Assembly: GCA_963457665.1 (NCBI GenBank)
Contig: OY735237.1
Coordinates: 1,154,001-1,218,000, forward strand
Direction: 5' to 3'
Length of the DNA stretch: 64,000 bases
Source of the DNA: Thysanoteuthis rhombus
Taxonomy: Eukaryota; Mollusca; Cephalopoda; Oegopsida; Thysanoteuthidae
Part shown: positions 28,446 through 64,000 of the stretch, in pieces
Layout: the number at the start of each line of letters is the position of its first letter
Position numbering within the stretch: position 1 is the first letter of the stretch
Translations under genes and position numbers: made by a program
The notes under the pieces: model-generated
Databases searched by the model: none
What the model was told of the DNA's origin: nothing
The model's input: the letters and a program-made list of their open reading frames with translations, nothing else

Positions 28446-28448
28446 CCT

Positions 28449-30310: not shown

Positions 30311-30314
30311 TAAG

Positions 30315-34325: not shown

Positions 34326-34329
34326 AAAG

Positions 34330-35015: not shown

Positions 35016-35019
35016 AAAA

Positions 35020-36980: not shown

Positions 36981-37246
36981 CTGGGGGTCGGATACGAAAA
37001 GATATGTATATTTTGGGGGGCAGGGGTACAAAAAGAGATATATATATATGTATTGGGGGGCAGGGGTTACAAAAAGATATATATATTTTGGGGGGCTGGG
37101 GGTACCAAAAGATATATATATATTTGTGGGGGGGCAGGGGGTGCAAAAATATATTTATTTTCGGGGTGGGGGTTACAAACGATATATATTGGGGGGGTAC
37201 AGAAAGATACATATTTTGGGGGCAGGGGGTACAAAATGATACAATA
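36981..37246. repeat. G-run minisatellite, about eight units
   Basis: Variable units of 27-41 bp, each with a run of five or more Gs, usually 'ggggg(g)caggggg', then 'tacaaaa' and an AT-rich 'gatatatatat' spacer. G-runs start near 36983, 37014, 37055, 37089, 37127, 37161, 37190 and 37217. Because it lacks stops in several frames, it produces overlapping open frames of up to 135 codons on both strands. These are not genes. Confidence 0.85.
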
Positions 37247-37249
37247 GTC

Positions 37250-38260
37250 GAGGGCTTTCTCTCCATTTTCGATTGTTCCCATCGGTATGATAATCAATTC
37301 AAAATATGAATAGGTTACACAACCCTTAGAGCAAGGACTGAGGGCCAGAAAACGTTTTCATTTTTTCTCAAGAGCCCAGAAGAATCGAAAGTTATACCAA
37401 GACAAAGTTTCGAAATTGAGAAGAGATTTTAGAATTTTAATTCTATTGTTTGTATAGAGAGAACAGGTGTAAAAAAAAAGAAGAAAAATAACTATCAAAA
37501 CGTTAATCTTCGTCAATATAGTGGGTATGCATCACCCATAATGTTAATTAAAGCTACCACGAACCACGGAAAGGCTCGAATCATTTTCGTTCAAATGAGA
37601 GTTCAGGAATGGAAAATTTACTATTTTTTAAAAAGTTATATCTCATCTAGATGTCGTATTTACGCGTAGTAGCAACGAACACAAGGCCTAGAGCAAGTTC
37701 TTGATGTTGAAATCGGCTATGTTTGGAGTATATTGCTGTGGACTTGAATTAGTTAACCCGAAAGAGACACATGATGCAAGTCAGGACTGTCCTAAAACAA
37801 CTTTGTTTGATCACGCTAGACTCGAATTCAGAGAGAGATGGAAGTAAAGAGAACTCTCCTGCTTATTCATTGCAAATAAATTTCCTTTTATTCAAGACTA
37901 TTTCGAAGACAAAACAAAATTTTGAAACAGAAAGAAGCAAAAATGAGCTGTAATACTTCTCCCGAGGTTACTAATGCCCGTGGGCCGCACATTACCGTCT
38001 TAAAATATTTACTCTAATCGAATTTTCTCCTGGATATATTGTGCTGTCTTGTGATCTCTCCACGTGAGGGTGAGCACAATGTAGACGAATACAAGGGTAG
38101 GGGTGTTCATACTTAATTGATCTTCCTACTTGATGCTTATATGAGAAAGGTGTCTACTTTGACCAATGACAAAGGAACAAGACTTGTCCCTTCTTAGCGA
38201 CACCAATTACCTAAATTTAATTAATTGAATAAAAAAACTTCATTTAATACATTTTCTATT
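37250..38260. other. No gene recognised
   Basis: CpG-containing AT-rich DNA with no recognisable exon or repeat. Confidence 0.4.
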
Positions 38261-38265
38261 TCTGA

Positions 38266-38379
38266 CGCTCAATTGTCTCACATTCAAAAGTATCATGCTC
38301 TATTGTCACCACACTCACTTGTCATCGCTCAATTATCGCACGCTCATTTGCCCTCGCTGAATTGCTGCACTTTCAATAG
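38266..38379. repeat. Degenerate 15-bp minisatellite, about eight units
   Basis: Successive units of 14-16 bp are built on 'cgctcaattgtctca', with every copy different (for example 'cgctcaattatcgca', 'cgctgaattgctgca'). It looks old and decayed, unlike the homogeneous arrays on either side. An open frame through it shows a five-residue AQLSH-like period. Confidence 0.7.
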
Positions 38380-40009
38380 GCAGCCAACAGAGGCAACTAT
38401 ATTTTCACAATAAAAAGTTTATGCAATCAAAGAGAACCAAACATCCTTCGACGAATAATAAGTAAATATATTGTTTAAACCTTTTCACAATGAATAGATG
38501 AATAGATATGTACTTTTGATTAGATCACAACTTCATTTAATCAAAACCAGGATATAAAACTATTATATTTTTAAAATCGATGGTTAATATAATCAAACTT
38601 TGGAACTTTTTATGAAAAAAACAAGTAAATAAATAGTTTTAATATTTTTTTAGAATAAATGTATTAAGATATAGTTTGAATAAATGAATTAAGATGTAGT
38701 TTGAACAAATGAATTAAGATGTAGTTTGAATAAATGAATCAAGATGTAGTTTGAATAAATGAATCAAGATGTAGTTTGAACAAATGAATCAAAATGTAGT
38801 TTGAACAAATGAATCAAGATGTAGTTTGAATAAATGAATCAAGATGTTGTTTGAATAAATGAATCAAGATGTAGTTTGAACAAATGAATTAAGATGTAGT
38901 TTGAATAAATGAATCAAGATGTAGTTTGAATAAATGAATCAAAATGTAGTTTGAATAAATGAATCAAGATGTAGTTTGAATAAATGAATCAAGATGTAGT
39001 TTTAATAAATGAATTGAGATGTACTTTGAATAAATGAATCAAGATGTAGTTCGAATAAATGAATCAAGATGTAGTTTGAATAAATGAATCAATATATAGT
39101 TTGAATGAATGAATCAAGATGTAGTTTGAATAAATGAATCAATATATAGTTTGAATAAATGAATTAAGATGTAGTTTGAATAAATGAATCAAGATGTAGT
39201 TTGAATGAATGAATCAAGATGTAGTTTGAATAAATGAATCAAGATGTAGTTTGAATAAATGAATCAAGATGTAGTTTGAATAAATGAATCAATATGTAGT
39301 TTGAATAAATGAATTAAGATGTAGTTTGAATAAATGAATCAAGATGTAGTTTGAATGAATGAATCAAGATGTAGTTTGAATAAATGAATCAATATATAGT
39401 TTGAATAAATGAATTAAGATGTAGTTTGAATAAATGAATCAAGACGTAGTTTGAATAAATGAATCAAGATGTAGTTTGAATAAATGAATCAATATGTAGT
39501 TTGAAAAATGAATGAAGATGTAGTTTTAATAAATGAATCAAGATGTAGTTTGAATAAATGAATCAAGATGTGGTTTTAATAAATGAATGAAGATGTTGTT
39601 TGAATAAATGAGTAAAGATGTGGTTTGAATAAATGAATCAAGATGTAGTTTGAATAAATGAATCAAGATGTCGTTTGAATAAATCAATCAAAAAGTAGTT
39701 CGAATAAATGAATCAAAATGTAGTTTGAATTAATGAATCAAGATGTAGTTTTAATAAATGAATTAAGATGTTGTTTGAATAAATGAATCAAGATGTAGTT
39801 TGAATAAAAGAATCAAGATGTAGTTTGAATAAATGAGTAAAGATGTAGTTTGAATAAATAAATAAAGATGTTGTTTGAATAAATGAATTAAGATGTTGTT
39901 TGATTAAATGAATCAAGATGTAGTTTGAAAAAATGAATGAAGATGTTGTTTGAATAAATGAATCAATATGTTTGAATAAATGAATTAAGATGTAGTTTGA
40001 ATAAATGAA

Positions 40010-41110
40010 TCAAGATGTAGTTTGAATAAATGAATCAAGATGTAGTTTGAATAAATGAATCAAGATGTAGTTTGAATAAATGAATCAAAATGTAGTTTGA
40101 ATTAATGAATCAAAATGTAGTTTGAATAAATGAATCAAGATGTAGTTTGAATAAATGAATAAAGATGTTGTTTGAATTAATGAATGAAGATGTAGTTTGA
40201 ATAAATGAATCAAGATGTTGTTTGAATAAATGAATCGAGATGTTGTTTGAATTAATGAATCAAGATGTTGTTTGAATTAATGAATCAAGATGTAGTTTGA
40301 ATAAATGAATCAAGATTTAGTTTAAATAAATGAATCAAGATGTAGTTTGAATAAATGAATCAAGATGTTGTTTGAATAAATGAATCAAGATGTTGTTTGA
40401 ATAAATGAATAAAGATTTAGTTTAAATAAATGAATCAAGATGTTGTTTGAATAAATGAATAAAGATGTAGTTTGAATAAATGAATTAAGATGTAGTTTGA
40501 ATAAATGAATCAAGATGTTGTTTTAATCAATGAATAATGATGTACTTTGAATTAATGAATCAAGATGTAGTTTGAATAAATGAATCAAGATGTAGTTTGA
40601 ATAAATGAATCAAGATGTAGTTTGAATAAATGAATCAAAATGTAGTTTGAATAAATGAATCAAGATGTAGTTTGAATAAATGAATCAAGATGTAGTTTGA
40701 ATAAATGAATAAAGATGTTGTTTGAATTAATGAATGAAGATGTAGTTTGAATAAATGAATCAAGATGTTGTTTGAATAAATGAATCGAGATGTTGTTTGA
40801 ATTAATGAATCAAGATGTTGTTTGAATTAATGAATCAAGATGTAGTTTGAATAAATGAATCAAGATTTAGTTTAAATAAATGAATCAAGATGTAGTTTGA
40901 ATAAATGAATCAAGATGTTGTTTGAATAAATGAATCAAGATGTTGTTTGAATAAATGAATAAAGATTTAGTTTAAATAAATGAATCAAGATGTTGTTTGA
41001 ATAAATGAATAAAGATGTAGTTTGAATAAATGAATTAAGATGTAGTTTGAAAAAATGAATCAAGATGTTGTTTTAATCAATGAATAATGATGTACTTTGA
41101 ATTAATGAAT
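40010..41110. repeat. Tandem 22-unit (550-bp) block duplication inside the satellite
   Basis: Rare variants recur at exactly 550-bp spacing: 'aaagatgttg' at 40161/40711, 'tcaaaatg' at about 40085/40635 and 'tgaataatgatgtac' at 40531/41081. Confidence 0.85.
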
Positions 41111-44100
41111 CAAGATGTAGTTTGAATAAATGAATCAAGATGTAGTTTGAATAAATGAATCAAGATGTAGTTTTAATAAATTAATCATGATGTAGTTTTA
41201 ATAAATGAATCAAGATGTAGTTTGAATAAAAGAATCAAAATGTTGTTTGAATAAATGAATCAAGATGTAGTTTGAATAAATGAATAACGATGTAGTTTGA
41301 ATAAATGAATCAAGATGTTGTTTTAATAAATGAATCAAGATGTAGTTTTGATAAATGAATCAAGATGTTGTTTGAATAAATGAATCAAGATGTTGTTTGA
41401 ATGAATGAATCAATAAGTAGTTTGAATAAATGAATCAAGATGTAGTTTTAATAAATGAATCAAGATGGAGTTTGAATAAATGAATCAAGATGTAGTTTGA
41501 ATAAATGAATCGAGATGTAGTTTGAATTAATGAATCAAGATGTTGTTTTAATAAATGAATCAAGATGTTGTTTTAATAAATGAATCAAGATGTAGTTTGA
41601 ATAAATGAATCAAGATGTAGTTTGAATAAATGAATTAAGATGTTGTTTGAATAAATGAATCAAGATGTAGTTTTGATAAATGAATCAAGATGTTGTTTGA
41701 ATAAATGAATCACGATGTAGTTTGAATGAATGAATCAAGATGTAGTTTTGATAAATGAATCAAGATGTAGTTTGAATGAATGAATCAAGATGTTGTTTTA
41801 ATAAATAAATCAAGATGAAGTTTGAATAAATGAATCAAGATGTAGTTTGAATAAATGAATCGAGATGTAGTTTGAATTAATGAATCAAGATGTAGTTTGA
41901 ATAAAGGAATCAAGATGTTGTTTGAATAAATGAATCAAGATGTAGTTTGAATAAATGAATCAAGATGTAGTTTGAATAAATGAATAAAGATGTTGTTTGA
42001 ATAAATGAATTAAGATGTTGTTTGAATAAATGAATCAAGATGTAGTTTTGATAAATGAATGAAGATGTTGTTTGAATAAATGAGTAAAGATATAGTTTGA
42101 ATGAATGAATCAAGATGTAGTTTTGATAAATGAATCAAGATGTAGTTTGAATGAATGAATCAAGATGTTGTTTTAATAAATGAATCAAGATGTAGTTTGA
42201 ATAAATGAATCAAGATGTAGTTTGAATAAATGAATCAAGATGTAGTTTGAATAAATGAATCAAGATGTTGTTTGAATAAATGAATCAAGATGTTGTTTGA
42301 ATAAATGAATCAAGATGTAGTTTGAATAAATGAATCAAGATGTAGTTTGAATAAATGAATCAAGATGTAGTTTGAATAAATGAATCAAGATGTAGTTTGA
42401 ATAAATGAATCAAGATGTAGTTTGAATAAATGAATCAAGATGTAGTTTGAATAAATGAATCAAGATGTAGTTTGAATAAATGAATCAAGATGTAGTTTGA
42501 ATAAATGAATCAAGATATAGTTTGAATAAATGAATCAAGATGTAGTTTGAATAAATGAATCAAGATATAGTTTGAATAAATGAATCAAAATGTAGTTTGA
42601 ATAAATGAATCAAGATGTAGTTTGAATAAATGAATTAATATGTATTTTGAATAAATGAATCAATATGTAGTTTGAATTAATGAATCAAGATGTAGTTTTA
42701 ATAAATGAATCAAGATGCAGTTTGAATAAATGAATCAAGATGTAGTTTGAATAAATGAATCAAGATGTAGTTTGAATAAATGAATCAAGATGTTGTTTGA
42801 ATAAATGAATCAAGATGTTGTTTGAATTAATGAATCAAGATGTTGTTTGAATAAATGAATCAAGATGTTGTTTGAATTAATGAATCAAGATGTTGTTTGA
42901 ATTAATGAATGAAGATGTAGTTTGAATAAATGAATCAAGATGTAGTTTGAATAAATGAATCAAGATGTAGTTTGAATAAATGAATCAAGATGTTGTTTGA
43001 ATAAATGAATCAAGATGTTGTTTGAATTAATGAATGAAGATGTAGTTTGAATAAATGAATCAAGATGTTGTTTGAATAAATGAATCAAGATGTTGTTTGA
43101 ATAAATGAATAAAGATGTAGTTTGAATAAATGAATTAAGATGTTGTTTTAATAAATGAATCAAGATGAAGTTTGAATAAATGAATCAAGATGTAATTTGA
43201 ATAAATGAATCAAGATGCAGTTTGAATAAATGAATCAATATGTTGTTTGAATAAAAGAATCAAGATGTAGTTTGAATAAATGAATCAAGATGTAGTTTGA
43301 ATAAATGAATCATGATGTAGTTTTAATAAATGAATCAAGATGTAGTTTGAATAAATGAATCAAGATGTTGTTTGAATAAATGAATCAAGATGTTGTTTGA
43401 ATGAATGAATCAAGATGTAGTTTGAATAAAAGAATCAAGATGTTGTTTGAATAAATGAATCAAGATGTAGTTTGAATTAATGAATCAAGATGTAGTTTGA
43501 AAAAATGAATCAAGATGTAGTTTGAATAAATGAATCAAGATGTAGTTTGAATAAATGAATCAAGATGTTGTTTGAATAAATGAATCAAGATGTTGTTTGA
43601 ATGAATGAATCAATAAGTAGTTTGAATAAATGAATCAAGATGTAGTTTTAATAAATGAATCAAGATGTAGTTTGAATAAATGAATCAAGATGTAGTTTGA
43701 ATGAATGAATCAAGATGTAGTTTTGATAAATGAATCAAGATGTAGTTTGAATGAATGAATCAAGATGTTGTTTTAATAAATAAATCAAGATGTAGTTTGA
43801 ATAAATGAATCAAGATGTAGTTTGAATAAATGAATCAAGATGTAGTTTGAATTAATGAATCAAGATGTAGTTTGAATAAATGAATCAAGATGTTGTTTGA
43901 ATAAATGAATCAAGATGTAGTTTTAATAAATGAATCAAGATGTAGTTTGAATAAATGAATCAAGATGTAGTTTGAATAAATGAATCAAGATGTTGTTTGA
44001 ATAAATGAATCAAGATGTAGTTTTGATAAATGAATCAAGATGTTGTTTGAATAAATTAATCAAGATGTAGTTTGAATGAATGAATCAAGATGTAGTTTTA

Positions 44101-45059
44101 ATAAATGAATCAAGATGTTGTTTGAATAAATGAATCAAGATGTAGTTTTAATAAATGAATCAAGATGTAGTTTGAATAAATGAATCAAGATGTAGTTTGA
44201 ATAAATGAATCAAGATGTTGTTTGAATAAATGAATCAAGATGTAGTTTGAATAAATGAATCAAGATGTAGTTTGAATAAATGAATCAAGATGTAGTTTGA
44301 ATAAATGAATCAAGATGTAGTTATAATAAATGAATCAAGATGTAGTTTGAATAAATGAATCAAGATGTTGTTTGAATAAATGAATCAAGATGTTGTTTGA
44401 ATAAATGAATCAAGATGTAGTTTGAATAAATGAATCAAGATGTAGTTTGAATAAATGAATCAAAATGTAGTTTGAATAAATGAATCAAGATGTAGTTTGA
44501 ATAAATGAATCAAGATGTTGTTTAAATAAATGAATCAAGATGTAGTTTGAATAAATGAATCAAGATGTAGTTTGAATAAATGAATCAAGATGTTGTTTGA
44601 ATAAATGAATCAAGATGTAGTTTTGATAAATGAATCAAGATGTTGCTTGAAAAAATTAATCAAGATGTAGTTTGAATGAATGAATCAAGATGTAGTTTTA
44701 ATAAATGAATCAAGATGTTGTTTGAATAAATGAATCAAGATGTAGTTTGAATAAATGAATCAAGATGTAGTTTGAATAAATGAATCAAGATGTAGTTTGA
44801 ATAAATGAATCAAGATGTAGTTTGAATAAATGAATCAAGATGTAGTTTGAATAAATGAATCAAGATGTTGTTTGAATTAATGAATCAAGATGTTGTTTGA
44901 ATAAATGAATCAAGATGTAGTTTGAATAAATGAATCAAGATGTAGTTTGAATAAATGAATCAAGATGTAGTTTGAATAAATTAATCAAGATGTTGTTTGA
45001 ATAAATGAATCAAGATGTTGTTTGAATAAATGAATCAAGATGTAGTTTGAATAAATGAA

Positions 45060-46260
45060 TCAAGATGTTGTTTGAATTAATGAATCAAGATGTAGTTTGA
45101 ATAAATGAATCAAGATGTTGTTTGAATTAATGAATGAAGATGTAGTTTGAATAAATGAATCAAGATGTAGTTTGAATAAATGAATCAAGATGTAGTTTGA
45201 ATAAATGAATCAAGATGCAGTTTGAATAAATGAATCAAGATGTAGTTTGAATAAATGAATCAAGATGTAGTTTGAATAAATGAATCAAGATGTTGTTTGA
45301 ATAAATGAATCAAAATGTTGTTTGAATCAATGAATCAAGATGTAGTTTGAATAAATGAATCAAGATGTTGTTTGAATTAATGAATGAAGATGTAGTTTGA
45401 ATAAATGAATCAAGATGAAGTTTGAATAAATGAATCAAGATGTAGTTTGAATAAATGAATCAAGATGTTGTTTGAATAAATGAATAAAGATGTAGTTTGA
45501 ATTAATGAATCAAGATGTAGTTTGAATAAATGAATCAAGATGTTGTTTGAATAAATGAATAAAGATGTAGTTTGAATAAATGAATTAAGATGTTGTTTTA
45601 ATAAATGAATAAAGATGAAGTTTGAATAAATGAATCAAGATGTTGTTTGAATAAATGAATCAAGATGTAGTTTGAATAAATGAATCAAGATGTAGTTTGA
45701 ATAAATGAATCAAGATGTTGTTTGAATTAATGAATGAAGATGTAGTTTGAATAAATGAATCAAGATGTAGTTTGAATAAATGAATCAAGATGTAGTTTGA
45801 ATAAATGAATCAAGATGCAGTTTGAATAAATGAATCAAGATGTAGTTTGAATAAATGAATCAAGATGTAGTTTGAATAAATGAATCAAGATGTTGTTTGA
45901 ATAAATGAATCAAAATGTTGTTTGAATTAATGAATCAAGATGTAGTTTGAATAAATGAATCAAGATGTTGTTTGAATTAATGAATGAAGATGTAGTTTGA
46001 ATAAATGAATCAAGATGAAGTTTGAATAAATGAATCAAGATGTAGTTTGAATAAATGAATCAAGATGTTGTTTGAATAAATGAATAAAGATGTAGTTTGA
46101 ATTAATGAATCAAGATGTAGTTTGAATAAATGAATCAAGATGTTGTTTGAATAAATGAATAAAGATGTAGTTTGAATAAATGAATTAAGATGTTGTTTTA
46201 ATAAATGAATAAAGATGAAGTTTGAATAAATGAATCAAGATGTTGTTTGAATAAATGAAT
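45060..46260. repeat. Tandem 24-unit (600-bp) block duplication inside the satellite
   Basis: Markers recur at 600 bp: 'caagatgcag' 45211/45811, 'caaaatgttg' 45311/45911, 'caagatgaag' 45411/46011 and 'aaagatgaag' 45611/46211. The two blocks are almost identical. Confidence 0.9.
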
Positions 46261-49200
46261 CAAGATGTAGTTTGAATAAATGAATGAAGATGTAGTTTGA
46301 ATGAATGAATCAATATGTTGTTTGAATAAATGAATCAAGATGTAGTTTGAATAAATGAATCAAGATGTAGTTTGAATAAATGAATCAAGATGTTGTTTGA
46401 ATAAATGAATAAAGATGTTGTTTGAATAAATGAATTAAGATGTAGTTTGAATAAATGAATCAAGATGTAGTTTGAAAAAATGAATCAAGATGTTGTTTTA
46501 ATAAATGAATAATGATGTACTTTGAATTTATGAATCAAGATGTCGTTTGAATAAATGAATCAAGATGTTGTTTGAATAAATGAATCAAGATGTAGTTTTA
46601 ATAAATGAATCAAGATGGCGTTTGAATAAATGAATCAAGGTGTAGTTTGAATAAAAGAATCAAGATGTTGTTTGAATAAATGAATCAAGATGTAGTTTAA
46701 ATTAATGAATCAAGATGTAGTTTGATTAAATGAATCAAGATGTAGTCTGAATAAATGAATCAAGATGTAGTTTGAATAAATGAATCAAGATGTTGTTTTA
46801 ATAAATGAATCAAGATGTAGTTTTGATAAATGAATCAAGATGTTGTTTGAATAAATGAATCAAGATGTTGTTTGAATGAATGAATCAATAAGTAGTTTGA
46901 ATAAATGAATCATGATGTAGTTTTAATAAATGAATCGAGATGTAGTTTGAATAAATGAATCAAGATGTAGTTTGAATAAATGAATCGAGATGTAGTTTGA
47001 ATTAATGAATCAAGATGTTGTTTTAATAAATGAATCAAGATGTTGTTTTAATAAATGAATCAAGATGTAGTTTGAATAAATGAATTAAAATGTTGTTTGA
47101 ATAAATGAATCAAGATGTAGTTTTGATAAATGAATCAAGATGTTGTTTGAATAAATGAATCAAGATGTAGTTTGAATGAATGAATCAAGATGTAGTTTTG
47201 ATAAATGAATCAAGATGTAGTTTGAATAAATGAATCAAAATGTTGTTTTAATAAATAAATCAAGATGTAGTTTGAATAAATGAATCAAGATGTAGTTTGA
47301 ATAGATGAATCGAGATGTAGTTTGAATTAATGAATCAAGATGTAGTTTGAATAAATGAATCAAGATGTTGTTTTAATAAATGAATCAAGATGTAGTTTGA
47401 ATAAATGAATCAAGATGTAGTTTGAATAAATGAATCAAAATGTTGTTTGAATAAATGAATCAAGATGTAGTTTTGATAAATGAATCAAGATGTTGTTTGA
47501 ATAAATTAATCAAGATGTAGTTTGAATGAATGAATCAAGATGTACTTTTAATAATTGAATCAAGATGTTGTTTGAATAAATGAATCAAGATGTAGTTTGA
47601 TTGAATGAATCAAGATGTAGTTTGAATAAATGAATCAAGATGTAGTTTGAATAAATGAATCAAGATGTTGTTTTAATAAATGAATCAAAATGTAGTTTGA
47701 ATAAATGAATCGAGGTGTTGTTTGAATAAATGAATCAAGATGTAGTTTGAATAAATGAATCAAGATGTTGTTTGAATAAATGAATAAAGATGTAGTTTGA
47801 ATAAATGAATCAAGATGTAGTTTGAATAAATGAATCAAGATGTAGTTTGAATAAATGAATCAAAATGTAGTTTGAATAAATGAATCAATATGTAGTTTGA
47901 ATAAATGAATCAAGATGTAGTTTGAATCAATGAATCAAAATGTAGTTTGAATTAATGAATCAAGATGTACTTTGAATAAATGAATCAAGATGTAGTTTGA
48001 ATAAATGAATCAAGATGTAGTTTGAATTAATGAATCAAAATGTAGTTTGAATAAATGAATGAAGATGTTACTTGAATAAATGAATCAAGATGTAGTTTGG
48101 ATAAATGAATCAAGATTTAGTTTGAATTAATGAATCAAGATGTTGTTTGAATAAATGAATCAAGATTTAGTTTGAATAAATGAATCAAGATGTAGTTTGA
48201 ATTATTGAATCAAGATGTAGTTTTAATAAATGAATCAAGATGTTGTTTGAATTAATCAATAAAAATGTAGTTTGAATAAATGAATCAAGATGTTGTTTGA
48301 ATTAATGAATCAAGATGTTGTTTGAATAGATGAATCAAGATGTAGTTTGAATAAATGAATCAAGATGTAGTTTGAATAACTGAATCAAGATGTTGTTTGA
48401 ATAAATGAATCAAGATGTAGTTCGAATTGATCAATCAAAATGTAGTTTGAATAAATGAATCAAGATGTTGTTTGAATTAATGAATCAAGATGTTGTTTGA
48501 ATAGATGAATCAAGATGTAGTTTGAATAAATGAATCCAGATGTAGTTTGAATAAATGAATCAAGATGTAGTTTGAATAAATGAATTAATAAGTAGTTGGA
48601 ATAAATGAATTAATATGTATTTTGAATAAATGAATCAATATGTTGTTTGAATTAATGAATCAAGATGTTGTTTGAATAAATGAATCAAGATGTTGTTTGA
48701 ATAAATGAATCAAGATGGCGTTTGAATAAATGAATCAAGATGTTGTTTGAATAAATGAATAAAGATGTACTTCGAATAAATGAATGAAGATGTTGTTTGA
48801 ATAAATGAATCAAGATGTAGTTTTGATAAATGAATCAAGATGTTGTTTGAATAAATGAATCAAGATGTAGTTTGAATAAATGAATGAAGATGTTGTTTGA
48901 ATAAATGAATAAAGATGTACTTCGAATAAATGAATGAAGATGTTGTTTGAATAAATGAATCAAGATGTAGTTTGAATAAATGAATCAAGATGTAGTTTGA
49001 ATAAATGAATCAAGATGTAGTTTGAATGAATGAATCAAGATGTAGTTTGAATAAATGAATCAAGATGTAGTTTGAATAAATGAATCAAGATGTAGTTTGA
49101 ATAAATGAATCAAGATGTAGTTTGAATAAATGAATCAAGATTTAGTTTGAATTAATAAATCAAAATGTAGTTTGAATAAATGAATCAAGATGTTGTTTGA

Positions 49201-49484
49201 ATTAATGAATCAAGATGTTGTTTGAATAGATGAATCAAGATGTAGTTTTAATAAATGAATCAAGATGAAGTTTGAATTAATGAATCAAGATGGCATTTGA
49301 ATCAATGAATGAAGATGTTGTTTGAATAAATGAATCAACATGTTGTTTGAATCAATGAATCATGATGTAGTTTGAATAATTGAATCAAGATGTTGTTTGA
49401 ATAAATGAATAAAAATGTAGTTTGAATTAATGAATGAAGATGTTGTTTGAATAAATGAATCAAGATGTTGTTTGAATAAATGAA

Positions 49485-50760
49485 TCAAGATGTAGTTTGA
49501 ATAAATGAATCAAGATGTTGTTTGAATAAATGAATCAAGATGTAGTTTGAATTAATGAATGAAGATGTTGTTTGAATAAATGAATCAAGATGTTGTTTGA
49601 ATAAATGAATCAAGATGTAGTTTGAATTAATGAATGAAGATGTTGTTTGAATAAATGAATCAAGATTTAGTTTGAATAAATGAATCAAGATGTTGTTTGA
49701 ATAAATAAATCAAGATGTAGTTTGAATAAATGAATCAAGATGTTGTTTGGATAAATGAATCAAGATGTTGTTTGAATAAATGAATCAAGATGTAGTTTGA
49801 ATTAATGAATGAAGATGTTGTTTGAATAAATGAATCAAGATGTTGTTTGAATAAATGAATCAAGATGTAGTTTGAATTAATGAATGAAGATGTTGTTTGA
49901 ATAAATGAATCAAGATTTAGTTTGAATAAATGAATCAAGATGTTGTTTGAATAAATAAATCAAGATGTAGTTTGAATAAATGAATCAAGATGTAGTTTGA
50001 ATAAATGAATCAAGATGTTGTTTGAATAAATGAATCAAGATGTAGTTTGAATAAATGAATCAAGATGTTGTTTGAATAAATGAATCAAGATGTAGTTTGA
50101 ATAAATGAATCAAGATGTTGTTTGAATAAATGAATCAAGATGTAGTTTGAATAAATAAATCAAGATGTAGTTTGAATAAATGAATCAAGATGTAGTTTGA
50201 ATAAATGAATCAAGATGTTGTTTGAATAAATGAATCAAGATTTAGTTTGAATAAATGAATCAAGATGTTGTTTGAATAAATAAATCAAGATGTAGTTTGA
50301 ATAAATGAATCAAGATGTAGTTTGAATAAATGAATCAAGATGTTGTTTGAATAAATGAATCAAGATGTAGTTTGAATAAATGAATCAAGATGTTGTTTGA
50401 ATAAATGAATCAAGATGTAGTTTGAATAAATGAATCAAGATGTTGTTTGAATAAATGAATCAAGATGTTGTTTGAATAAATAAATCAAGATGTAGTTTGA
50501 ATAAATGAATCAAGATGTAGTTTGAATAAATGAATCAAGATGTTGTTTGAATAAATGAATCAAGATGTAGTTTGAATTAATGAATGAAGATGTTGTTTGA
50601 ATAAATGAATCAAGATGTTGTTTGAATAAATGAATCAAGATGTAGTTTGAATTAATGAATGAAGATGTTGTTTGAATAAATGAATCAAGATTTAGTTTGA
50701 ATAAATGAATCAAGATGTTGTTTGAATAAATAAATCAAGATGTAGTTTGAATAAATGAAT
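49485..50760. repeat. 10-unit (250-bp) higher-order repeat inside the satellite
   Basis: The same variant series occurs at 49485, 49735 (250 bp on) and 50510 (775 bp further), each 204-bp stretch translating identically on the minus strand. Confidence 0.85.
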
Positions 50761-53700
50761 CAAGATGTTGTTTGGATAAATGAATCAAGATGTTGTTTGA
50801 ATAAATGAATCAAGATGTAGTTTGAATAAATGAATCAAGATGTTGTTTGAATAAATGAATCAAGATTTAGTTTGAATAAATGAATCAAGATGTTGTTTGA
50901 ATAAATGAATCAAGATGTTGTTTGAATAAATGAATCAAGATGTTGTTTGAATAAATGAATCAAGATGTAGTTTGAATAAATGAATCAAGATGTTGTTTGA
51001 ATAAATGAATCAAGATGTAGTTTGAATTAATGAATGAAGATGTTGTTTGAATTAATGAATCATGATGTAGTTCGAATAAATGAATCAAGATGTAGTTTGA
51101 ATTAATGAATGAAGATGTTGTTTGAATTATTGAATCAAGATGTTGTTTGAATAGATGAATCAAGATGTAGTTTGAATAAATGAATCAATATATAGTTTGA
51201 ATTAATGAATGAAGATGTAGTTTGAATTAATGAATGAAGATGTTGTTTGAATAAATGAATCAATATGTAGTTTGAATAAATGAATCAAGATGTTGTTTGA
51301 ATTAATGAATCAAGATGTAGTTTGAATAAATGAATCAAGATGTTGTTTGAATTAATGAATCAAGATGTAGTTTGAATAAATGAATCAAGATGTTGTTCGA
51401 ATTAATGAATCAAGATGTTGTTTGAATAGATGAATCAAGATGTAGTTTTAATAAATGAATCAAGATGAAGTTTGAATTAATGAATCAAGATGGCATTTGA
51501 ATCAGTGAATGAAGATGTTGTTTGAATAAATGAATCAACATGTTGTTTGAATCAATGAATCATGATGTTGTTTGAATAAATGAATCAAGATGTTGTTTGA
51601 ATAAATGAATCAAGATGTAGTTTGAATAAATGAATCAAGATGTTGTTTGAATTAATGAATCAAGATGTAGTTTGAATAAATGAATCAAGATGTTGTTTGA
51701 ATTAATGAATGAAGATGTTGTTTGAATAAATGAATCAAGATGTTGTTTGAATAAATGAATCAAGATGTTGTTTGAATTAATGAATCAAGATGTAGTTTGA
51801 ATAAATGAATCAAGATGTTGTTTGAATTAATGAATCAAGATGTAGTTTGAATAAATGAATCAAGATGTTGTTTGAATTAATGAATCAAGATGTTGTTTGA
51901 ATAGATGAATCAAGATGTAGTTTTAATAAATGAATCAAGATGAAGTTTGAATTAATGAATCAAGATGGCATTTGAATCAATGAATGAAGATGTTGTTTGA
52001 ATAAATGAATCAACATGTTGTTTGAATCAATGAATCATGATGTAGTTTGAATAATTGAATCAAGATGTTGTTTGAATAAATGAATAAAAATGTAGTTTGA
52101 ATTAATGAATGAAGATGTTGTTTGAATAAATGAATCAAGATGTTGTTTGAATAAATGAATCAAGATGTAGTTTGAATAAATGAATCAAGATGTTGTTTGA
52201 ATAAATGAATCAAGATGTAGTTTGAATTAATGAATGAAGATGTTGTTTGAATAAATGAATCAAGATTTAGTTTGAATAAATGAATCAAGATGTTGTTTGA
52301 ATAAATGAATCAAGATGTAGTTTGAATAAATGAATCAAGATGTAGTTTGAATAAATGAATCAAGATGTAGTTTGAATTAATGAATGAAGATGTTGTTTGA
52401 ATTAATGAATCAAGATGTAGTTTGAATAAATGAATCAAGATGTAGTTCGAATTAATGAATGAAGATGTTGTTTGAATTATTGAATCAAGATGTTGTTTGA
52501 ATAAATGAATCAAGATGTAGTTTGAATTAATGAATCAAGATGTAGTTTGAATTAATGAATGAAGATGTTGTTTGAATTATTGAATCAAGATGTAGTTTGA
52601 ATAGATGAATCAAGATATAGTTTGAATAAATGAATCAAGTTGTAGTTTGAATTAATGAATGAAGATGTTGTTTGAATTAATGAATGAAGATGTAGTTTGA
52701 ATAAATGAATCAAGATGTTGTTTGAATTAATGAATCAAGATGTAGTTTGAATTAATGAATGAAGATGTAGTTTGAATTAATGAATCAAGATGTTGTTTGA
52801 ATAGATGAATCAAGATGTTGTTTGAATAAATGAATCAAGATGTAGTTTGAATTAATGAATCAAGATGTAGTTTGAATAAATGAATCAAGATGTTGTTTGA
52901 ATTAATTAATCAAGATGTAGTTTGAATTAATGAATGAAGATGTTGTTTGAATAAATGAATCAAGATGTTGTTTGAATAAATGAATCAAGATGTTGTTTGA
53001 ATTAATGAATCAAGATGTAGATTGAATAAATGAATCAAGATGTTGTTTGAATTAATGAATCAAGATGTTGTTTGAATAAATGAATCAAGATGTTGTTTGA
53101 ATTAATGAATCAAGATGTAGTTTGAATTAATGAATGAAGATGTTGTTTGAATAAATGAATCAAGATGTTGTTTGAATAAATGAATCAAGATGTTGTTTGA
53201 ATTAATGAATCAAGATGTAGTTTGAATAAATGAATCACGATATTGTTTGAATTAATGAATCGAGATGTAGTTTGAATAAATGAATCAAGATGTAGTTTGA
53301 ATAAATGAATGAAGATGTTGTTTGAATTAATGAATCAAGATGTAGTTTGAATAAATGAATCAAGATGTTGTTTGAATTAATGAATCAAGAAGTAGTTTGA
53401 ATTAATGAATGAAGATGTCGTTTGAATAAATGAATCAAGATGTTGTTTGAATAAATGAATCAAGATGTAGTTTGAATAAATGAATCAAGATGTTGTTTGA
53501 ATAAATTAATCAAGATGTAGTTTGAATTAATGAATGAAGATGTTGTTTGAATAAATGAATCAAGATGTTGTTTGAATAAATGAATCAAGATGTTGTTTGA
53601 ATTAATGAATCAAGATGTTGTTTGAATAAATGAATCAAGATGTAGTTTGAATAAATGGATCAAGATGTTGTTTGAATAAATGAATCAAGATGTAGTTTGA

Positions 53701-56700
53701 ATAAATGAATCAAGATGTTGTTTGAATAAATGAATCAAGATGTTGTTTGAGTAAATGAATCAAGATGTAGTTTGAATAAATGAATCAAGATGTTGTTTGA
53801 ATAAATGAATCAAGATGTAGTTTGAATAAATGAATCAAGATGTAGTTTGAATAAATGAATCAAGATGTAGTTTGAATAAATGAATCAAAATGTAGTTTGA
53901 ATAAATGAATCAATATGTAGTTTGAATAAATGAATCAAGATGTAGTTTGAATCAATGAATCAAGATGTTGTTTGAATTAATGAATGAAGATGTAGTTTGA
54001 ATAAATGAATCAAGATGATGTTTGAATTAATGAATCAAGATGTAGTTTGAATTAATGAATGAAGATGTTGTTTGAATAGATGAATCAAGATGTTGTTTGA
54101 ATAAATGAATCAAGATGTAGTTTGAATTAATGAATCAAGATGTAGTTTGAATAAATGAATCAAGATGTTGTTTGAATTAATTAATCAAGATGTAGTTTGA
54201 ATTAATGAATGAAGATGTTGTTTGAATAAATGAATCAAGATGGCGTTTGAATAAATGAATGAAGATGTTGTTTGAATTAATGAATCAAGATGTAGTTTGA
54301 ATAAATGAATGAAGATGTTGTTTGAATTAATGAATCAAGATGTAGTTTGAATAAATGAATCAAGATGTTGTTTGAATAAATGAATCAAGATGTAGTTTGA
54401 ATAAATGAATGAAGATGTTGTTTGAATAAATGAATAAAGATGTACTTCGAATAAATGAATGAAGATGTTGTTTGAATAAATGAATCAAGATGTAGTTTGA
54501 ATAAATGAATCAAGATGTAGTTTGAATAAATGAATCAAAATGTAGTTTGAATAAATGAATCAAGATGTAGTTTGAATAAATGAATCAAGATGTAGTTTGA
54601 ATAAATGAATCAAGATGTAGTTAGAATAAATGAATCAAGATGTATTTTGAATAAATGAATCAAGATTTAGTTTGAATTAATAAATCAAAATGTAGTTTGA
54701 ATCAATGAATGAAGATGTTGTTTGAATAAATGAATCAACATGTTGTTTGAATCAATGAATCATGATGTAGTTTGAATAATTGAATCAAGATGTTGTTTAA
54801 ATAAATGAATCAAAATGTAGTTTGAATTAATGAATGAAGATGTTGTTTGAATAAATGAATGAAGATGTTGTTTGAATAAATGAATCAAGATGTAGTTTGA
54901 ATAAATGAATCAAGATGTTGTTTGAATAAATGAATCAAGATGTAGTTTGAATAAATGAATCAAGATGTAGTTTGAATAAATGAATCAAGATGTAGTTTGA
55001 ATTAATGAATCAAGATGTTGTTTGAATAAATGAATCAAGATGTAGTTTGAATAAATGAATAAAGATGTAGTTTGAATAAATGAATCAAGATGTAGTTTGA
55101 ATTAATGAATCAAGATGTTGTTTGAATTAATGAATCAAGATGTAGTTTGAATAAATGAATCAAGATGTAGTTTGAATTAATGAATGAAGATGTTGTTTGA
55201 AATAATGAATCAAGATGTTGTTTGAATAGATGAATCAAGATGTAGTTTGAATAAATGAATCAAGATGTAGTTTGAATTAATGAATGAAGATGTTGTTTGA
55301 ATAAATGAATCAAGATGTAGTTTGAATAAATGAATCAAGATGTTGTTTGAATTAATGAATCAAGATGTAGTTTGAATTAATGAATCAAGATGTTGTTTGA
55401 ATAGATGAATCAAGATGTTGTTTGAATTAATGAATCAAGATGTAGTTTGAATTAATGAATGAAGATGTTGTTTGAATAAATGAATCAAGATGTTGTTTGA
55501 ATAAATGAATCAAGATGTTTTTGAATTAATGAATCAAGATGTTGTTTGAATAAATGAATCAAGATGTTGTTTGAATTCATGAATGAAGATGTTGTTTGAA
55601 TAAATGAATCAAGATGTTGTTTGAATAAATGAATCATGATGTAGTTTGAATAAATGAATCAAGATGTTGTTTGAATTAATGAATCAAGATGTAGTTTGAA
55701 TAAATAAATCAAGATGTTGTTTGAATAAATGAATCAAGATGTAGTTTGAATGAATGAATCAAGATGTTGTTTGAATAAATGAATCAAGATGTTGTTTGAA
55801 TAAATGAATCAAGATGTAGTTTGAATAAATGAATCAAGATGTTGTTTGAATAAATGAATCAAGATGTAGTTTGAATAAATGAATCAAGATGTAGTTTGAA
55901 TATATGAATCAAGATGTAGTTTGAATAAATGAATCAAGATGTTGTTTGAATAAATGAATCAAGATGTAGTTTGAATAAATGAATCAAGATGTAGTTTGAA
56001 TAAATGAATCAAGATGTTGTTTGAATAAATGAATCAAGATGTAGTTTGAATAAATGAATCAAGATGTAGTTTGAATAAATGAATCAAGATGTTGTTTGAA
56101 TAAATGAATCAAGATGTAGTTTGAATAAATGAATCAAGATGTAGTTTGAATAAATGAATCAAGATTTTGTTTGAATTAATGAATCAAGATGTAGTTTGAA
56201 TTAATGAATGAAGATGTTGTTTGAATAAATGAATCAAGATTTAGTTTGAATAAATGAATCAAGATGTTGTTTGAATTAATGAATGAAGATGTTGTTTGAA
56301 TAAATGAATCAAGATGTAGTTTGAATAAATGAATCAAGATGTTGTTTGAATTAATGAATCAAGATGTTGTTTGAATAGATGAATCAAGATGTTGTTTGAA
56401 TTATTGAATCAAGATGTAGTTTGAATTAATGAATGAAGATGTTGTTTGAATGAATGAATCAAGACGTAGTTTGAATATATGAATCAAGATGTAGTTTGAA
56501 TAAATGAATCAAGATGTTGTTTGAATAAATGAATCAAGATGTAGTTTGAATAAATGAATCAAGATGTAGTTTGAATAAATGAATCAAGATTTTGTTTGAA
56601 TTAATGAATGAAGATGTTGTTTGAATAAATGAATCAAGATGTAGTTTGAATAAATGGATGAAGATGTTGTTTGAATTAATGAATCAAGATGTAGTGTGAA

Positions 56701-59700
56701 TTAATGAATGAAGATGTTGTTTGAATAAATGAATCAAGATGTTGTTTGAATAAATGAATCAAGATGTAGTTTGAATTAATGAATGAAGATGTTGTTTGAA
56801 TGAATGAATCAAGTTGTTGTTTGAATAGATGAATCAAGATGTAGTTTGAATAAATGAATCAAGATGTAGTTTGAATTAATGAATGAAGATGTTGTTTGAA
56901 TTAATGAATCAAGATGTAGTTTGAATAAATGAATCAAGATGTAGTTTGAATAAATGAATCAAGATGTAGTTTGAATTAATGAATGAAGATGTTGTTTGAA
57001 TTAATGAATCAAGATGTAGTTTGAATAAATGAATCAAGATGTAGTTTGAATTAATGAATGAAGATGTTGTTTGAAATAATGAATCAAGATGTTGTTTGAA
57101 TAGATGAATCAAGATGTAGTTTGAATAAATGAATCAAGATGTAGTTTGAATTAATGAATGAAGATGTTGTTTGAATAAATGAATCAAGATGTAGTTTGAA
57201 TAAATGAATCAAGATGTTGTTTGAATTAATGAATCAAGATGTAGTTTGAATTAATGAATCAAGATGTTGTTTGAATAGATGAATCAAGATGTTGTTTGAA
57301 TTAATGAATCAAGATGTAGTTTGAATTAATGAATGAAGATGTTGTTTGAATAAATGAATCAAGATGTTGTTTGAATAAATGAATCAAGATGTTGTTTGAA
57401 TTAATGAATCAAGATGTTGTTTGAATTAATGAATCAAGATGTAGTTTGAATAAATGAATCAAGATGTTGTTTGAATTAATGAATCAAGATGTAGTTTGAA
57501 TTAATGAATGAAGATGTTGTTTGAATAAATGAATCAAGATGTTGTTTGAATAAATGAATCATGATGTAGTTTGAATAAATGAATCAAGATGTTGTTTGAA
57601 TTAATGAATCAAGATGTAGTTTGAATAAATAAATCAAGATGTTGTTTGAATAAATGAATCAAGATGTAGTTTGAATGAATGAATCAAGATGTTGTTTGAA
57701 TAAATGAATCAAGATGTTGTTTGAATAAATGAATCAAGATGTAGTTTGAATAAATGAATCAAGATGTTGTTTGAATAAATGAATCAAGATGTAGTTTGAA
57801 TAAATGAATCAAGATGTAGTTTGAATATATGAATCAAGATGTAGTTTGAATAAATGAATCAAGATGTAGTTTGAATAAATGAATCAAGATGTAGTTTGAA
57901 TAAATGAATCAAGATGTTGTTTGAATAAATGAATCAAGATGTAGTTTGAATAAATGAATCAAGATGTAGTTTGAATAAATGAATCAAGATGTTGTTTGAA
58001 TAAATGAATCAAGATGTAGTTTGAATAAATGAATCAAGATGTAGTTTGAATAAATGAATCAAGATTTTGTTTGAATTAATGAATCAAGATGTAGTTTGAA
58101 TTAATGAATGAAGATGTTGTTTGAATAAATGAATCAAGATTTAGTTTGAATAAATGAATCAAGATGTTGTTTGAATTAATGAATGAAGATGTTGTTTGAA
58201 TAAATGAATCAAGATGTAGTTTGAATAAATGAATCAAGATGTTGTTTGAATAAATGAATCAAGATGTAGTTTTAATAAATGAATCAAGATGTTGTTTGAA
58301 TAAATGAATCAGGATGTAGTTTGAATAAATGAATCAAGATGTTGTTTGAATTAATGAATCAAGGTGTTGTTTGAATAAATGAATCAAGATGTTGTTTGAA
58401 TTAATTTATCAAAATGTAGTTTGAATGAATGAATCAAGATGTAATTTGAATTAATGAATCAAGATGTTGTTTGAATAAATGAATCAAGACGTAGTTTAAA
58501 TAAATGAATCAAGATGTAGTTTGAATAAATGAATCAAGATGTTGTTTGAATAAATGAATCAAGATGTTGTTTGGATAAATGAATCGAGATGTAGTTTGAA
58601 TAAATGAATCAAGATGTAGTTTGAATAAATGAATCAAAATGTAGTTTGATTAAATGAATGATGTTGTTTTAATAAATGAATCAAGATGTAGTTTGAATTA
58701 ATCAATCAAGATGTTGTTTGAATAAAGGAATCAAGATGTAGTTTGAATAAATGAATCAAGATGTTGTTTGAATAAATGAATCAAGTTGTAGTTTGAATAA
58801 ATGAATGAAGATGTTGTTTGAATAAATGAATCAAGATGTAGTTCGAATAAATGAATCAAGTTGTAGTTTTGATAAATGAATCAAGATGTAGTTTTAATAA
58901 ATGAATCAAGATGTAGTTTGAATAAATGAATCAAGATGTAGTTTGAATAAATGAATCAAGATGTAGCTTGAATAAATGAATCAAGATGTAGTTTGAATAA
59001 ATGAATCAAGATGTAGCTTGAATAAATGAATCAAGATGTAGTTTGAATTAATGAATCAAGATGTAGTTTGAATAAATGAATAAAGATGTTGTTTGAATTA
59101 ATGAATCAAGATGTTGTTTGAATAAATGAATCAAGATGTAGTTTGAATTAATGAATCAAAATGTAGTTTGAATTAATGAATCAAGATGTTGTTTGAATAA
59201 ATGAATCAAGATGTAGTTTGAATTAATGAATCAAGATGTAGTTTGAATAGAGGAATCAAGATGTAGTTTGAATAAATGAATGAAGATGTAGTTTGAATTA
59301 ATGAATCAAGATGTAGTTTGAATAAATGAATCAAGATGTAGTTTTAATAAATGAATCAAGATGTAGTTTGAATAAATGAATCAAGATGTTGTTTGAATTA
59401 ATGAATCGATATGTAGTTTGAATGAATGAATCAAGATGTAGTTTGAATAAATGAATCAAGATGTAGTTTGAATTAATGAATCAAGATGTAGTTTGAATAG
59501 AGGAATCAAGATGTAGTTGAATAAATGAATCAAGATGTAGTTTGAATAAATGAATCAAGATGTAGTTTGAATAAATGAATCAAGATGTAGTTTGAATGAA
59601 TGAATCAAGATGTAGTTTGAATTAATGAATCAAGATGTTGTTTGAATAAATGAATCAAGATGTAGTTTGAATAAATGAATGAAGATGTTGTTTGAATGAA

Positions 59701-62700
59701 TGAATCGAGATGTAGTTTGAATAAATGAATCAAGATGTAGTTTGAATAAATGAATCAATATGTAGTTTGAATTAATGAATCAAGATGTAGTTTGAATAAA
59801 TGAATCAAGATGTAGTTTGAATAAATGAATCAAGATGTAGTTTGAATGAATGAATCAAGATGTAGTTTGAATTAATGAATCAAGATGTTGTTTGAATAAA
59901 TGAATCAAGATGTAGTTTGAATAAATGAATGAAGATGTTGTTTGAATGAATGAATCGAGATGTAGTTTGAATAAATGAATCAAGATGTAGTTTGAATAAA
60001 TGAATCAATATGTAGTTTGAATTAATGAATCAAGATGTAGTTTGAATAAATGAATCAAGATGTAGTTTGAATAAATGAATCAAGATGTAGTTTGAATAAA
60101 TGAATCAAAACGTAGTTTGAATTAATGAATCAAGATGTAGTTTGAATAAATGAATCAAGATGTAGTTTGAATAAATGAATCAAGATGTTGTTTGAATTAA
60201 TGAATCAAGGTGTTGTTTGAATAAATGAATCAAGATGTAGTTTGAATTAATGAATCGAGATGTAGTTTGAATAAATGAATCAAGATGTAGTTTGAATAAA
60301 TGAATCAAGATGTAGTTTGAATAAATGAATCAAGATGTAGTTTGAATAAATGAATCAAGATGTAGTTTGAATAAATGAATCAAGATGTAGTTTGAATAAA
60401 TGAATCAAGATGTAGTTTGAATAAATGAATCAAGATGTAGTTTGAATAAATGAATCAAGATGTAGTTTGAATAAATGAATCAAGATGTAGTTTGAATAAA
60501 TGAATCAAGATGTAGTTTGAATAAATGAATCAAGATGTAGTTTGAATTAATGAATCAAGATGTTGTTTGAATAAAAGAATCAAGATGTAGTTTGAATAAA
60601 TGAATCAAGATGTAGTTTGAATTAATGAATCAAGATGTAGTTTGAATAGAGGAATCAAGATGTAGTTTTAATAAATGAATCAAGATGTAGTTTGAATAAA
60701 TGAATCAAGATGTAGTTTGAATAAATGAATCAAGATGTTGTTTGAATTAATGAATCAAGGTGTTGTTTGAATAAATGAATCAAGATGTTGTTTGAATTAA
60801 TGAATCAAAATGTAGTTTGAATTAATGAATCAAGATGTAGTTTAAATAAATGAAATCAAGATGTAGTTTGAATGAATGAATCAAGATGTAGTTTGAATTA
60901 ATGAATCAAGATGTTGTTTGAATAAATGAATCAAGACGTAGTTTGAATAAATGAATCAAGATGTAGTTTGAATAAATGAATCAAGATGTTGTTTGAATAA
61001 ATGAATCAACATGTTGCTTGAATAAATGAATCAAGATGTAGTTTCAATAAATGAATCAAGATGTAGTTTGAATAAATGAATCAAAATGTAGTTTGAATAA
61101 ATGAATGAAGATGTTGTTTTAATAAATGAATCAAGATGTAGTTTGAATTAATCAATCAAGATGTTGTTTGAATAAAGGAATCAAGATGTAGTTTGAATAA
61201 ATGAATAAGATGTAGTTTGAATAAATGAATCAAGATGTTGTTTGAATAAATGAATCAAGATGTAGTTTGAATAAATGAATCAAGATGTAGTTTTGATAAA
61301 TGAATCAAGATGTAGTTTTAATAAATGAATCAAGATGTAGTTTGAATAAATGAATCAAGATGTAGTTTGAATAAATGAATCAAGATGTAGCTTGAATAAA
61401 TGAATCAAGATTTAGTTTGAATTATTGAATCAAGATGTAGTTTGAATAAATGAATCAAGATGTAGTTTGAATGAATGAATCAAGATTTAGTTTGAATTAT
61501 TGAATCAAGATGTAGTTTGAATAAATGAATCAAGATGTAGTTTGAATAAATGAATCAAGATGTAGCTTGAATAAATGAATCAAGATTTAGTTTGAATTAT
61601 TGAATCAAGATGTAGTTTGAATAAATGAATCAAGATGTAGTTTGAATTAATGAATCGAGATGTAGTTTGGATTAATGAATCAAGATGTAGTTTGAATAAA
61701 TGAATCCATATGTAGTTTGAATTAATGAATCAAGATGTAGTTTGAATAGATGAATCAAGATGTAGTTTGAATAAATGAATCAATATGTAGTTTGAATTAA
61801 TGAATCAAGATGTAGTTTGAATAGATGAATCAAGATGTAGTTTGAATAAATGAATCAAGATGTAGTTTGAATAAATGAATCCATATGTAGTTTGAATTAA
61901 TGAATCAAGATGTAGTTTGGATTAATGAATCAATATGTAGTTTGAATTAATGAATCAAGATGTAGTTTGAATAAATGAATCCATATGTAGTTTGAATTAA
62001 TGAATCAAGATGTAGTTTGAATAAATGAATCAAGATGTAGTTCGAATTAATGAATCAAGATGTAGTTTTGATAAATGAATCAAGATGTAGTTTTGATAAA
62101 TGAATCAAGATGTAGTTTTAATAAATGAATCAAGATGTAGCTTGAATAAATGAATCAAGATGTAGTTTGAATAAATGAATCAAGATGTAGCTTGAATAAA
62201 TGAATCAAGATGTAGTTTGAATTAATGAATCAAGATGTAGTTTGAATAAATGAATCAAGATGTAGTTTGAATAAATGAATCAAGATGTAGCTTGAATAAA
62301 TGAATCAAGATGTAGTTTGAATTAATGAATCAAGATGTAGTTTGAATTAATGAATGAAGATGTAGTTTGAATAAATGAATCAAGATGTAGTTTGAATAAA
62401 TGAATCAAGATGTAGTTTGAATTAATGAATCAAGATGTAGTTTGAATAAATGAATCAAGATGTAGTTTTAATAAATGAATCAAGATGTAGCTTGAATAAA
62501 TGAATCAAGATGTAGTTTGAATAAATGAATCAAGATGTAGCTTGAATAAATGAATCAAGATGTAGTTTGAATTAATGAATCAATATGTAGTTTGAATTAA
62601 TGAATCAAGATGTAGTTTGGATTAATGAATCAAGATGTAGTTTGAATTAATGAATCAAGATGTAGTTTTAATAAATGAATCAAGATGTAGTTTGAATAAA

Positions 62701-64000
62701 TGAATCAAGATGTAGTTTGAATAAATGAATCAAGATGTAGCTTGAATAAATGAATCAAGATGTAGTTTGAATAAATGAATCAAGATGTAGTTTGAATAAA
62801 TGAATCAAGATGTAGCTTGAATAAATGAATCAAGATGTAGCTTGAATAAATGAATCAAGATGTAGCTTGAATAAATGAATCAAGATGTAGTTTGAATTAA
62901 TGAATCAAGATGTAGTTTGAATAAATGAATCAAGATGTAGTTTGAATTAATGAATCAAGATGTAGTTTGAATAAATGAATCAAGATGTAGTTTGAATTAA
63001 TGAATCAAGATGTAGTTTGAATAAATGAATCAAGATGTAGTTTGAATTAATGAATCAAGATGTAGTTTTGATAAATGAATCAAGATGTAGTTTTGATATA
63101 TGAATCAAGATGTAGTTTTAATAAATGAATGAATATGTTGTTTGAATAAATGAATCGAGATGTAGTTTGAATAAATGAATCAAGATGTCGTTTGAATAAA
63201 TGAATGAAGATGTAGTTTGAATAAATGAATCAAGATGTAGTTTGAATAAATGAATGAAGATGTTGTTTGAATAAATAAATCAAGATGTAATTTGAATAAA
63301 TGAATCAATATGTAGTTTTAATAAATGAATCAAGATGTAATTTTAATTAATGAATCAAGATGTCGTTTGAATAAATGAATCAAGATGTAGTTTGAATAAA
63401 CGAATGAAGATGTTGTTTGAATAAATGAATCAAGATGTAGTTTTAATAAATGAATCAAGATGTAGTTTTAATAAATGAATCAATATTTTGTTTGTAGAAA
63501 TGAATTAAGATGGCGTTTGAATAAATGGATGAAGATGTTGTTTGAATAAATGAATGACGATGTTGTTTTAATAAATGAATCAAGATGTAGTTTTAATAAA
63601 TGAATCAAGATGTTGTTTGAATAAATGAATCAAGATGTTGTTTGAATTAATGAATCAAGATGTAGTTTGAATAAATGAATCAAGATGTAGTTTGAATAAA
63701 TGAATCAAGATGAAGTTTGAATTAATGAATCAAGATGTAGTTTGAATAAATGAATCAAGATGTAGTTTGAATAAATGAATCAAGATGTAGTTTGAATAAA
63801 TGAATCAAGATGTTGTTTGAATTAATGAATCGATATGTAGTTTGAATGAATGAATCAAGATGTAGTTTGAATAAATGAATCAAGATGTAGTTTGAATAAA
63901 TGAATCAAGATGTAGTTTGAATAAATGAATCAAGATGTAGTTTGAATAAATGAATCAAGATGTAATTTTAATTAATGAATCAAGATGTAGTTTGAATAAA

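Follow-up and report, generated by a model that had tools for sequence, protein, structure and literature searches.

A 25-bp tandem array in Thysanoteuthis rhombus is, with a probability of about 0.85, a single-locus, probably hypervariable, AT-rich minisatellite that has expanded to 41 kb near a gene. The window that we analysed is a stretch of 64,000 nucleotides (C42:1,154,001-1,218,000); C42 is a 42-Mb contig in an assembly of 2.73 Gb and 514 contigs. The array of the window, array B, lies in arm B of an inverted duplication, and array A is its counterpart in the inverted copy, arm A; both are on C42. Together, the paired arrays look like a local expansion of a minisatellite, not like a centromere or a genome-wide satellite. 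The hypervariability is probable from the comparison of the two copies. Hypervariable AT-rich minisatellites are already known as a kind; the length and the paired copies are unusual. In a literature search of titles and of the openings of abstracts, no paper among those listed could be recognised as describing this array, and we do not claim that it is absent from print.

The features of the window are as follows (window coordinates, strand, description).

1..64000, no strand, window within arm B of the inverted segmental duplication (matches inside the window and on both sides)
28630..29361, + strand, TMEM86/YhhN-family exon in a stop-to-stop open frame (Pfam PF07947, E 1.6e-43)
31681..33005, + strand, second 25-bp array, 53 units of TATTTGATTATTTTGGTACCGACTT (TRF; unit dissimilar to the main unit)
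38491..38526, + strand, isolated degenerate unit-like stretch (score of 28 in local alignment, as against at most 27 in 300 base shuffles)
38600..38652, + strand, left junction of array B (junction sequence and a similar first unit also in the inverted copy)
38653..64000, + strand, 25-bp minisatellite array B, which continues 16,064 bp past the window to C42:1,234,064 (TRF, unit parsing and adjoining contig sequence)

Extent, composition and surroundings of array B

TRF placed the array at 38653-64000 of the window with a period of 25, 1014.3 copies, 91% matches and 0% indels, in agreement with the start, the unit length and the copy number given by the first-pass annotation. That annotation had the array running off the window, and the adjoining contig sequence confirmed this: by unit parsing, the complete array B is C42:1,192,653-1,234,064, which corresponds to 41,412 bp and 1,657 units with 285 distinct forms. 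The consensus unit is GAATAAATGAATCAAGATGTAGTTT (76% A+T), and the array contains no N. The part of array B in the window comprises 1,015 units, the last of which is truncated by the window end, in 182 distinct forms including the truncated one; the commonest form is again GAATAAATGAATCAAGATGTAGTTT (275 units). The array had also been described as uninterrupted. Unit parsing of the window part agreed with this description, with no foreign insertion seen and an indel in seven internal units. A base-by-base comparison at a lag of 25 gave a match of 0.916. From 40,001 onward in the window, the GC content is 23-24% and the GC skew is +0.63 to +0.72. Length variants of the unit are rare in array B, and the substitutional variants are interspersed. 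Divergence from the consensus, measured in blocks of 50 units, is mostly 3-7% in array B, with 8-11% in the last four blocks; in array A it is 7.7% in the first block, 10.9% in the last block and 2.6-5.5% between them. Thus, the units are less uniform at three of the four array ends than in the interiors.

No function of the array is indicated. No Rfam family reached the cut-off inside array B. Coding on the + strand of the array was ruled out, the longest open stretch being 28 codons, and coding on the - strand, where the longest open stretch is 113, is not indicated.

The TMEM86/YhhN-like frame ends 9.3 kb before the start of array B. Given the preceding intron-like sequence and the stop codon, this exon is probably the last exon of its gene. 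It is intact in both copies of the segment, and the 3 of 734 bases that differ are all synonymous. Ten of the 44 ORFs listed for the window were searched against Pfam, and the YhhN ORF was the one with a match; the same ORF had no match in the PDB. The degenerate unit-like stretch at 38491..38526 is about 130 bp outside array B and is possibly a relic or progenitor of the array unit. In the right flank of array B, a unit-like stretch was not found by local alignment (score 19, p 0.17).

Other repeats were observed in the window. A 5S rRNA-like stretch at 34203-34321 (+ strand) is the single Rfam match in the window (50.2 bits; cut-off 38), and our guess is that it is a 5S-derived SINE. At 1129-2261, a 113-bp unit is repeated in ten copies (96%). 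An imperfect 32-39-bp repeat at 36993-37241 has AT-runs beside G-runs (GGGGGGCAGGGGG), and an array that resembles it is also present in the inverted copy (C42:693,553-693,743).

Array B is 1.19-1.23 Mb from the start of C42. The first part of this contig (C42:1-10000) is a different satellite, which has a 181-bp unit (98%) and is at least 10 kb long. It is possible that array B is loosely near a chromosome end. Contig C1 starts with (TTAGGG)n; C42 starts with the 181-bp satellite instead. On contig C198, mitochondrial COX1 is present at two places 7,175 bp apart, and both reappear 20,544 bp further along; a mitogenome of about 20-21 kb in which cox1 is duplicated is reported to be characteristic of oegopsid squids (PMC7800340). 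Two further arrays on C42 are outside the duplicated segment as seen, namely a 15.9-kb array of a 21-bp unit (C42:1276689-1292543, 755 copies) and an array of another 25-bp unit that spans 3.3 kb (C42:1334324-1337623). C42 also has a further inverted repeat, in which part of 1401000-1405000 recurs reversed at 1370006-1372512 (96%).

Copies of the unit and the inverted duplicate

The unit was counted in the assembly with one 32-base pattern that spans one unit junction, a probe by which strongly diverged relatives could be missed. In the whole 2.73-Gb assembly there were 451 exact matches (395 forward and 56 reverse), 395 of them in 194 kb around array B and 56 in 40 kb around array A. Because a control pattern, read backwards, had 0 matches in the 2.73-Gb assembly as compared with 451 for the true pattern, array B is not a chance product. 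When up to three mismatches were allowed, the assembly-wide counts were 1,539 and 362, which equal the counts in the two array stretches, and within the 194 kb around array B no such match fell outside the array. The unit is confined by these probe counts to two arrays on one contig; the confinement is based on the equality of the totals for the assembly and for the array stretches. Thus, the array is a discrete locus and not a genome-wide family. A family shared by many chromosomes, as in pericentromeric or knob satellites, was not observed, the probe counts giving one contig. The first-pass annotation had offered four readings and had proposed a genome-wide count of unit loci to decide between them. 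This count, with two arrays in one duplicated region, points to local expansion: the locally expanded minisatellite was retained, and the centromeric, pericentromeric and knob readings were dropped, since with equal probe counts a multi-chromosome satellite was not seen.

A similarity search returned array A and a weak array of a 26-bp unit on contig C34 but not array B, probably because very common words were skipped; the pattern totals are the reliable measure. The array on C34 (C34:39078599-39079180) has 22 copies, and its unit resembles the main 25-bp unit, with 0 of 300 shuffles as good. For a unit picked from a 2.7-Gb search, this resemblance is weak evidence of kinship with the main unit.

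Array A (C42:682,908-692,086; 9.2 kb, 367 units) is on the strand opposite to array B and 0.5 Mb away from it. Arm A extends from about 655 kb to beyond 742 kb of C42, and its sequence recurs reversed in arm B. A 680-683 kb corresponds to B 1,237-1,234 kb (95%), A 692-698 kb to B 1,192-1,187 kb (98%), A 714-724 kb to B 1,170-1,160 kb (97.9% over 10,033 columns) and A 738-742 kb to B 1,148-1,144 kb (97.7%). Among the matches listed, A 665-673 kb corresponds to B 1,259-1,251 kb (94-96%), A 674-677 kb to B 1,239-1,237 kb (97-98%) and A 698-704 kb to B 1,186-1,180 kb (98%). One comparison omitted matches shorter than 400 bp and matches with both ends inside array A; the other omitted matches shorter than 500 bp or below 90% identity. 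In the matches listed with mismatch figures, substitutions between the flanks of A and B amount to about 1.1-3.3%, and the remaining difference is gaps. The exception to the range of 94-98% is A 673,037-673,973, at the edge of an array with a 43/127-bp unit, where the identity is 85%.

On the outward side, the homology ends at about 655.5 kb in A and about 1,266.3 kb in B. A 644-654 kb has no collinear match in B and shows scattered repeats only, including a 296-bp out-of-place piece (94%). No N bases were found in the sequence examined around both copies. For the sequence between the arms, no second copy of 806-809 kb or 903-906 kb was present among the 40 candidates scored for each. Because no second copy of 806-809 kb was among these candidates, the inner edge of arm A should lie between 742 and 806 kb. 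Arm A contains an extra piece of 3.3 kb without a counterpart in B. A 1-kb stretch that is matched once in B has three matches in tandem in arm A, at a spacing of 2.07 kb. The pair thus has the high identity of a segmental duplication and an outer edge in both copies, the edges seen being the outer ones only. Arrays A and B have the same left junction and begin with similar units. Therefore, the array or its seed predates the duplication.

Turnover of unit order

The two copies of the segment in this one assembly contain 367 and about 1,657 units, and array B, at 41.4 kb, is 4.5-fold longer than array A, which measures 9.2 kb. Runs of identical units common to A and B reach at most 5 units, as compared with 4-6 in five shuffles. 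When windows of 20 units from A were placed at their best positions in B, the mean divergence was 5.26% (35 windows). Shuffled A gave 5.70% (sd 0.05, 20 shuffles), and simulated unbroken copies of B with 1.1%, 2.2%, 3.3% and 5% substitutions gave 1.2%, 2.3%, 3.2% and 4.9%, respectively. With 40-unit windows, the values for A versus B, shuffled A and the simulated 5% copy were 6.03%, 6.40% and 4.9%; with 10-unit windows, they were 4.40%, 4.72% and 4.94%. The best A-to-B window had a divergence of 2.4%. At all three window sizes, the likeness of A to B was above that of shuffled order, in each case by 5 to 9 sd (20 shuffles). The unit order is largely turned over between A and B, and the residual likeness is weak and statistically clear. 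Because the real array is at least as close as the simulated 5% copy (4.94%) in 10-unit windows, small conserved pieces would escape this comparison. The residual likeness may be surviving ancestral order or may reflect motifs repeated in both copies.

When array B was compared with itself in 164 windows of 20 units, 47 of them had a partner that did not overlap and was less than 2.5% divergent, as compared with 0 of 164 in one shuffle. The partners are at distances of 22, 24, 31, 34, 41, 42, 75-77, 107, 164 and 167 units. In the largest duplicated block the copies are 167 units (4.2 kb) apart and their windows differ by 0-1.4%; aligned as a whole, this block is identical in 97.5% of 4,052 ungapped columns, as compared with 91.7% for one control block. 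Adjacent units of array B differ by 2.27 bases and random pairs by 2.32, and the minimum among the lags tried is 2.10 at lag 10. Adjacent units are nearly as different as random pairs, and for this reason we rejected slippage of single units as the main process. Array A shows a slight likeness of neighbours (2.08 between adjacent units, 2.20 for random pairs).

The block duplicates, the lost order and the heterogeneous ends fit a process in which blocks of several units are copied through out-of-register exchange or repair. We propose that the array would grow and shrink by out-of-register recombination, or by recombination repair between misaligned copies, in which runs of units and not single units are copied. 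As enzymatic routes, unequal sister-chromatid exchange and synthesis-dependent strand annealing are candidates. The array would have no sequence-specific function, and its length would be tolerated because it lies outside recognised exons.

Two other arrays of the segment were compared as well. The second 25-bp array has 53 units in B and 12 in the inverted copy A (1.3 versus 0.3 kb). A probe of TATTTGATTATTTTGGTACCGACTT with up to three mismatches matched 53 times forward and 13 times reverse in the assembly, and 63 of these 66 matches are in the two copies. The remaining three are single, 3-mismatch matches at C8:56729796, C33:12628681 and C46:17124658; the variant is identical at the C8 and C33 sites, a hint of a dispersed element as the source. 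As single-stranded DNA, three units of the second array have a better fold than shuffled sequences (z -2.5, 3 of 200 as good). Kinship among the two 25-bp units, the third 25-bp unit at about 1,334 kb and the 21-bp unit at about 1,277 kb was unsupported in eight comparisons (lowest p 0.097). The third array of the segment, with the 43/127-bp unit, measures 11.9 kb in B and 1.2 kb in A. All three arrays are thus longer in B. That array length is governed by the chromosomal segment and not by the individual array is a decidedly doubtful idea, since with equal odds three arrays would lean the same way with a chance of 1 in 4 and are too few to exclude chance. If true, it would suggest a state of the region that acts in cis and causes its minisatellites to expand jointly.

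Alternative readings and known systems

The inverted copy might be the other haplotype of the same locus, unpurged and placed in reverse, in which case the arrays would be two alleles from one animal. An identity of 94-98% is compatible with high heterozygosity, which a figure legend on flying squid mentions (PMC10225486), and the common exon differs at just 3 of 734 sites, all synonymous. Against this stand the ends of homology at about 655.5 and 1,266.3 kb, seen in sequence free of N that does not include the inner edges of the arms, the lack of a second copy of 806-809 and 903-906 kb among the 40 candidates scored for each, the lack of a collinear match for A 644-654 kb, and the extra 3.3-kb piece and three tandem matches to one 1-kb B stretch in arm A. 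We consider this reading unlikely, and less likely than a true duplication. An assembly artefact, in which a short array was copied many times, is far less probable still. Arrays of 41 kb are hard to assemble, and the evidence here is assembled sequence; however, 285 distinct forms occur among the 1,657 units, and near-identical blocks 22-167 units apart still differ at scattered sites. Because of these differences and the absence of N from the sequence examined, a simple mis-expansion is unlike what is seen.

A satellite that belongs to a genome-wide structural family, whether centromeric, pericentromeric or at a knob, would also be long, uninterrupted and AT-rich, and the array is 1.2 Mb from a contig start composed of the 181-bp satellite. 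The probe counts of the assembly, however, are matched in full by two arrays of a single contig. The array also has a gene exon to its left, and the sequence on either side is ordinary and contains dispersed repeats, so that we give this reading very little weight. An equally improbable reading is that of a functional element, in which the array would be a strong barrier, transcript-ending or chromatin-based, to read-through from the gene upstream of it. The motifs AATAAA and TGTA play a role in 3'-end formation. The + strand of the array contains 1,184 AATAAA and 966 TGTA, and the orientation of the array matches that of the upstream TMEM86-like gene. Such motifs easily arise in an AT-rich unit, however, and the inverted copy keeps the gene beside an array that is 4.5 times shorter.

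The expanded minisatellite, which we prefer, can be compared with known systems. Classical hypervariable minisatellites are far shorter than array B. According to a passage on the classical autosomal loci (PMC2599865), they have interspersed variant repeats at one locus, as does array B, and are GC-rich, unlike array B, which is GC-poor with a strong strand asymmetry. The same source describes MSY1 (DYF155S1) of the human Y as a single locus with a 25-bp unit of 75% A+T, with substitutional unit variants, length variants never seen, 48-118 units in single-type blocks, and a unit predicted to form a hairpin (PMC2599865). To the extent of that description, array B is like MSY1 in its 25-bp unit, 76% A+T, one locus, several substitutional variants and rare length variants, and differs in having 1,657 units with interspersed variants. 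For the main array, we discarded an MSY1-type mechanism driven by hairpins, since on neither strand did the unit fold better than shuffled sequences (z +1.0 and +1.3).

A passage that calls the class limits loose gives minisatellite units as 11-60 bp and arrays as usually a few hundred bp (PMC12692304). The period of 25 is within this range, and the 41.4 kb of array B exceeds the array size, which is a typical and not a defining value. With tens of kilobases of head-to-tail units, array B resembles satellite DNA in the wide sense; it differs in its unit, which is in the minisatellite range as given there, and in being one duplicated locus near a gene.

Thus, a very long, satellite-like array behaves as a one-locus minisatellite, and the length of an array is not enough to class it as a centromeric or structural satellite. 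The inverted segment pair offers a built-in comparison of the change in a long array with that in its flanks: between the copies, substitutions in the flanks amount to about 1-3%, whereas the arrays are 4.5-fold different in length and retain little of their common unit order.
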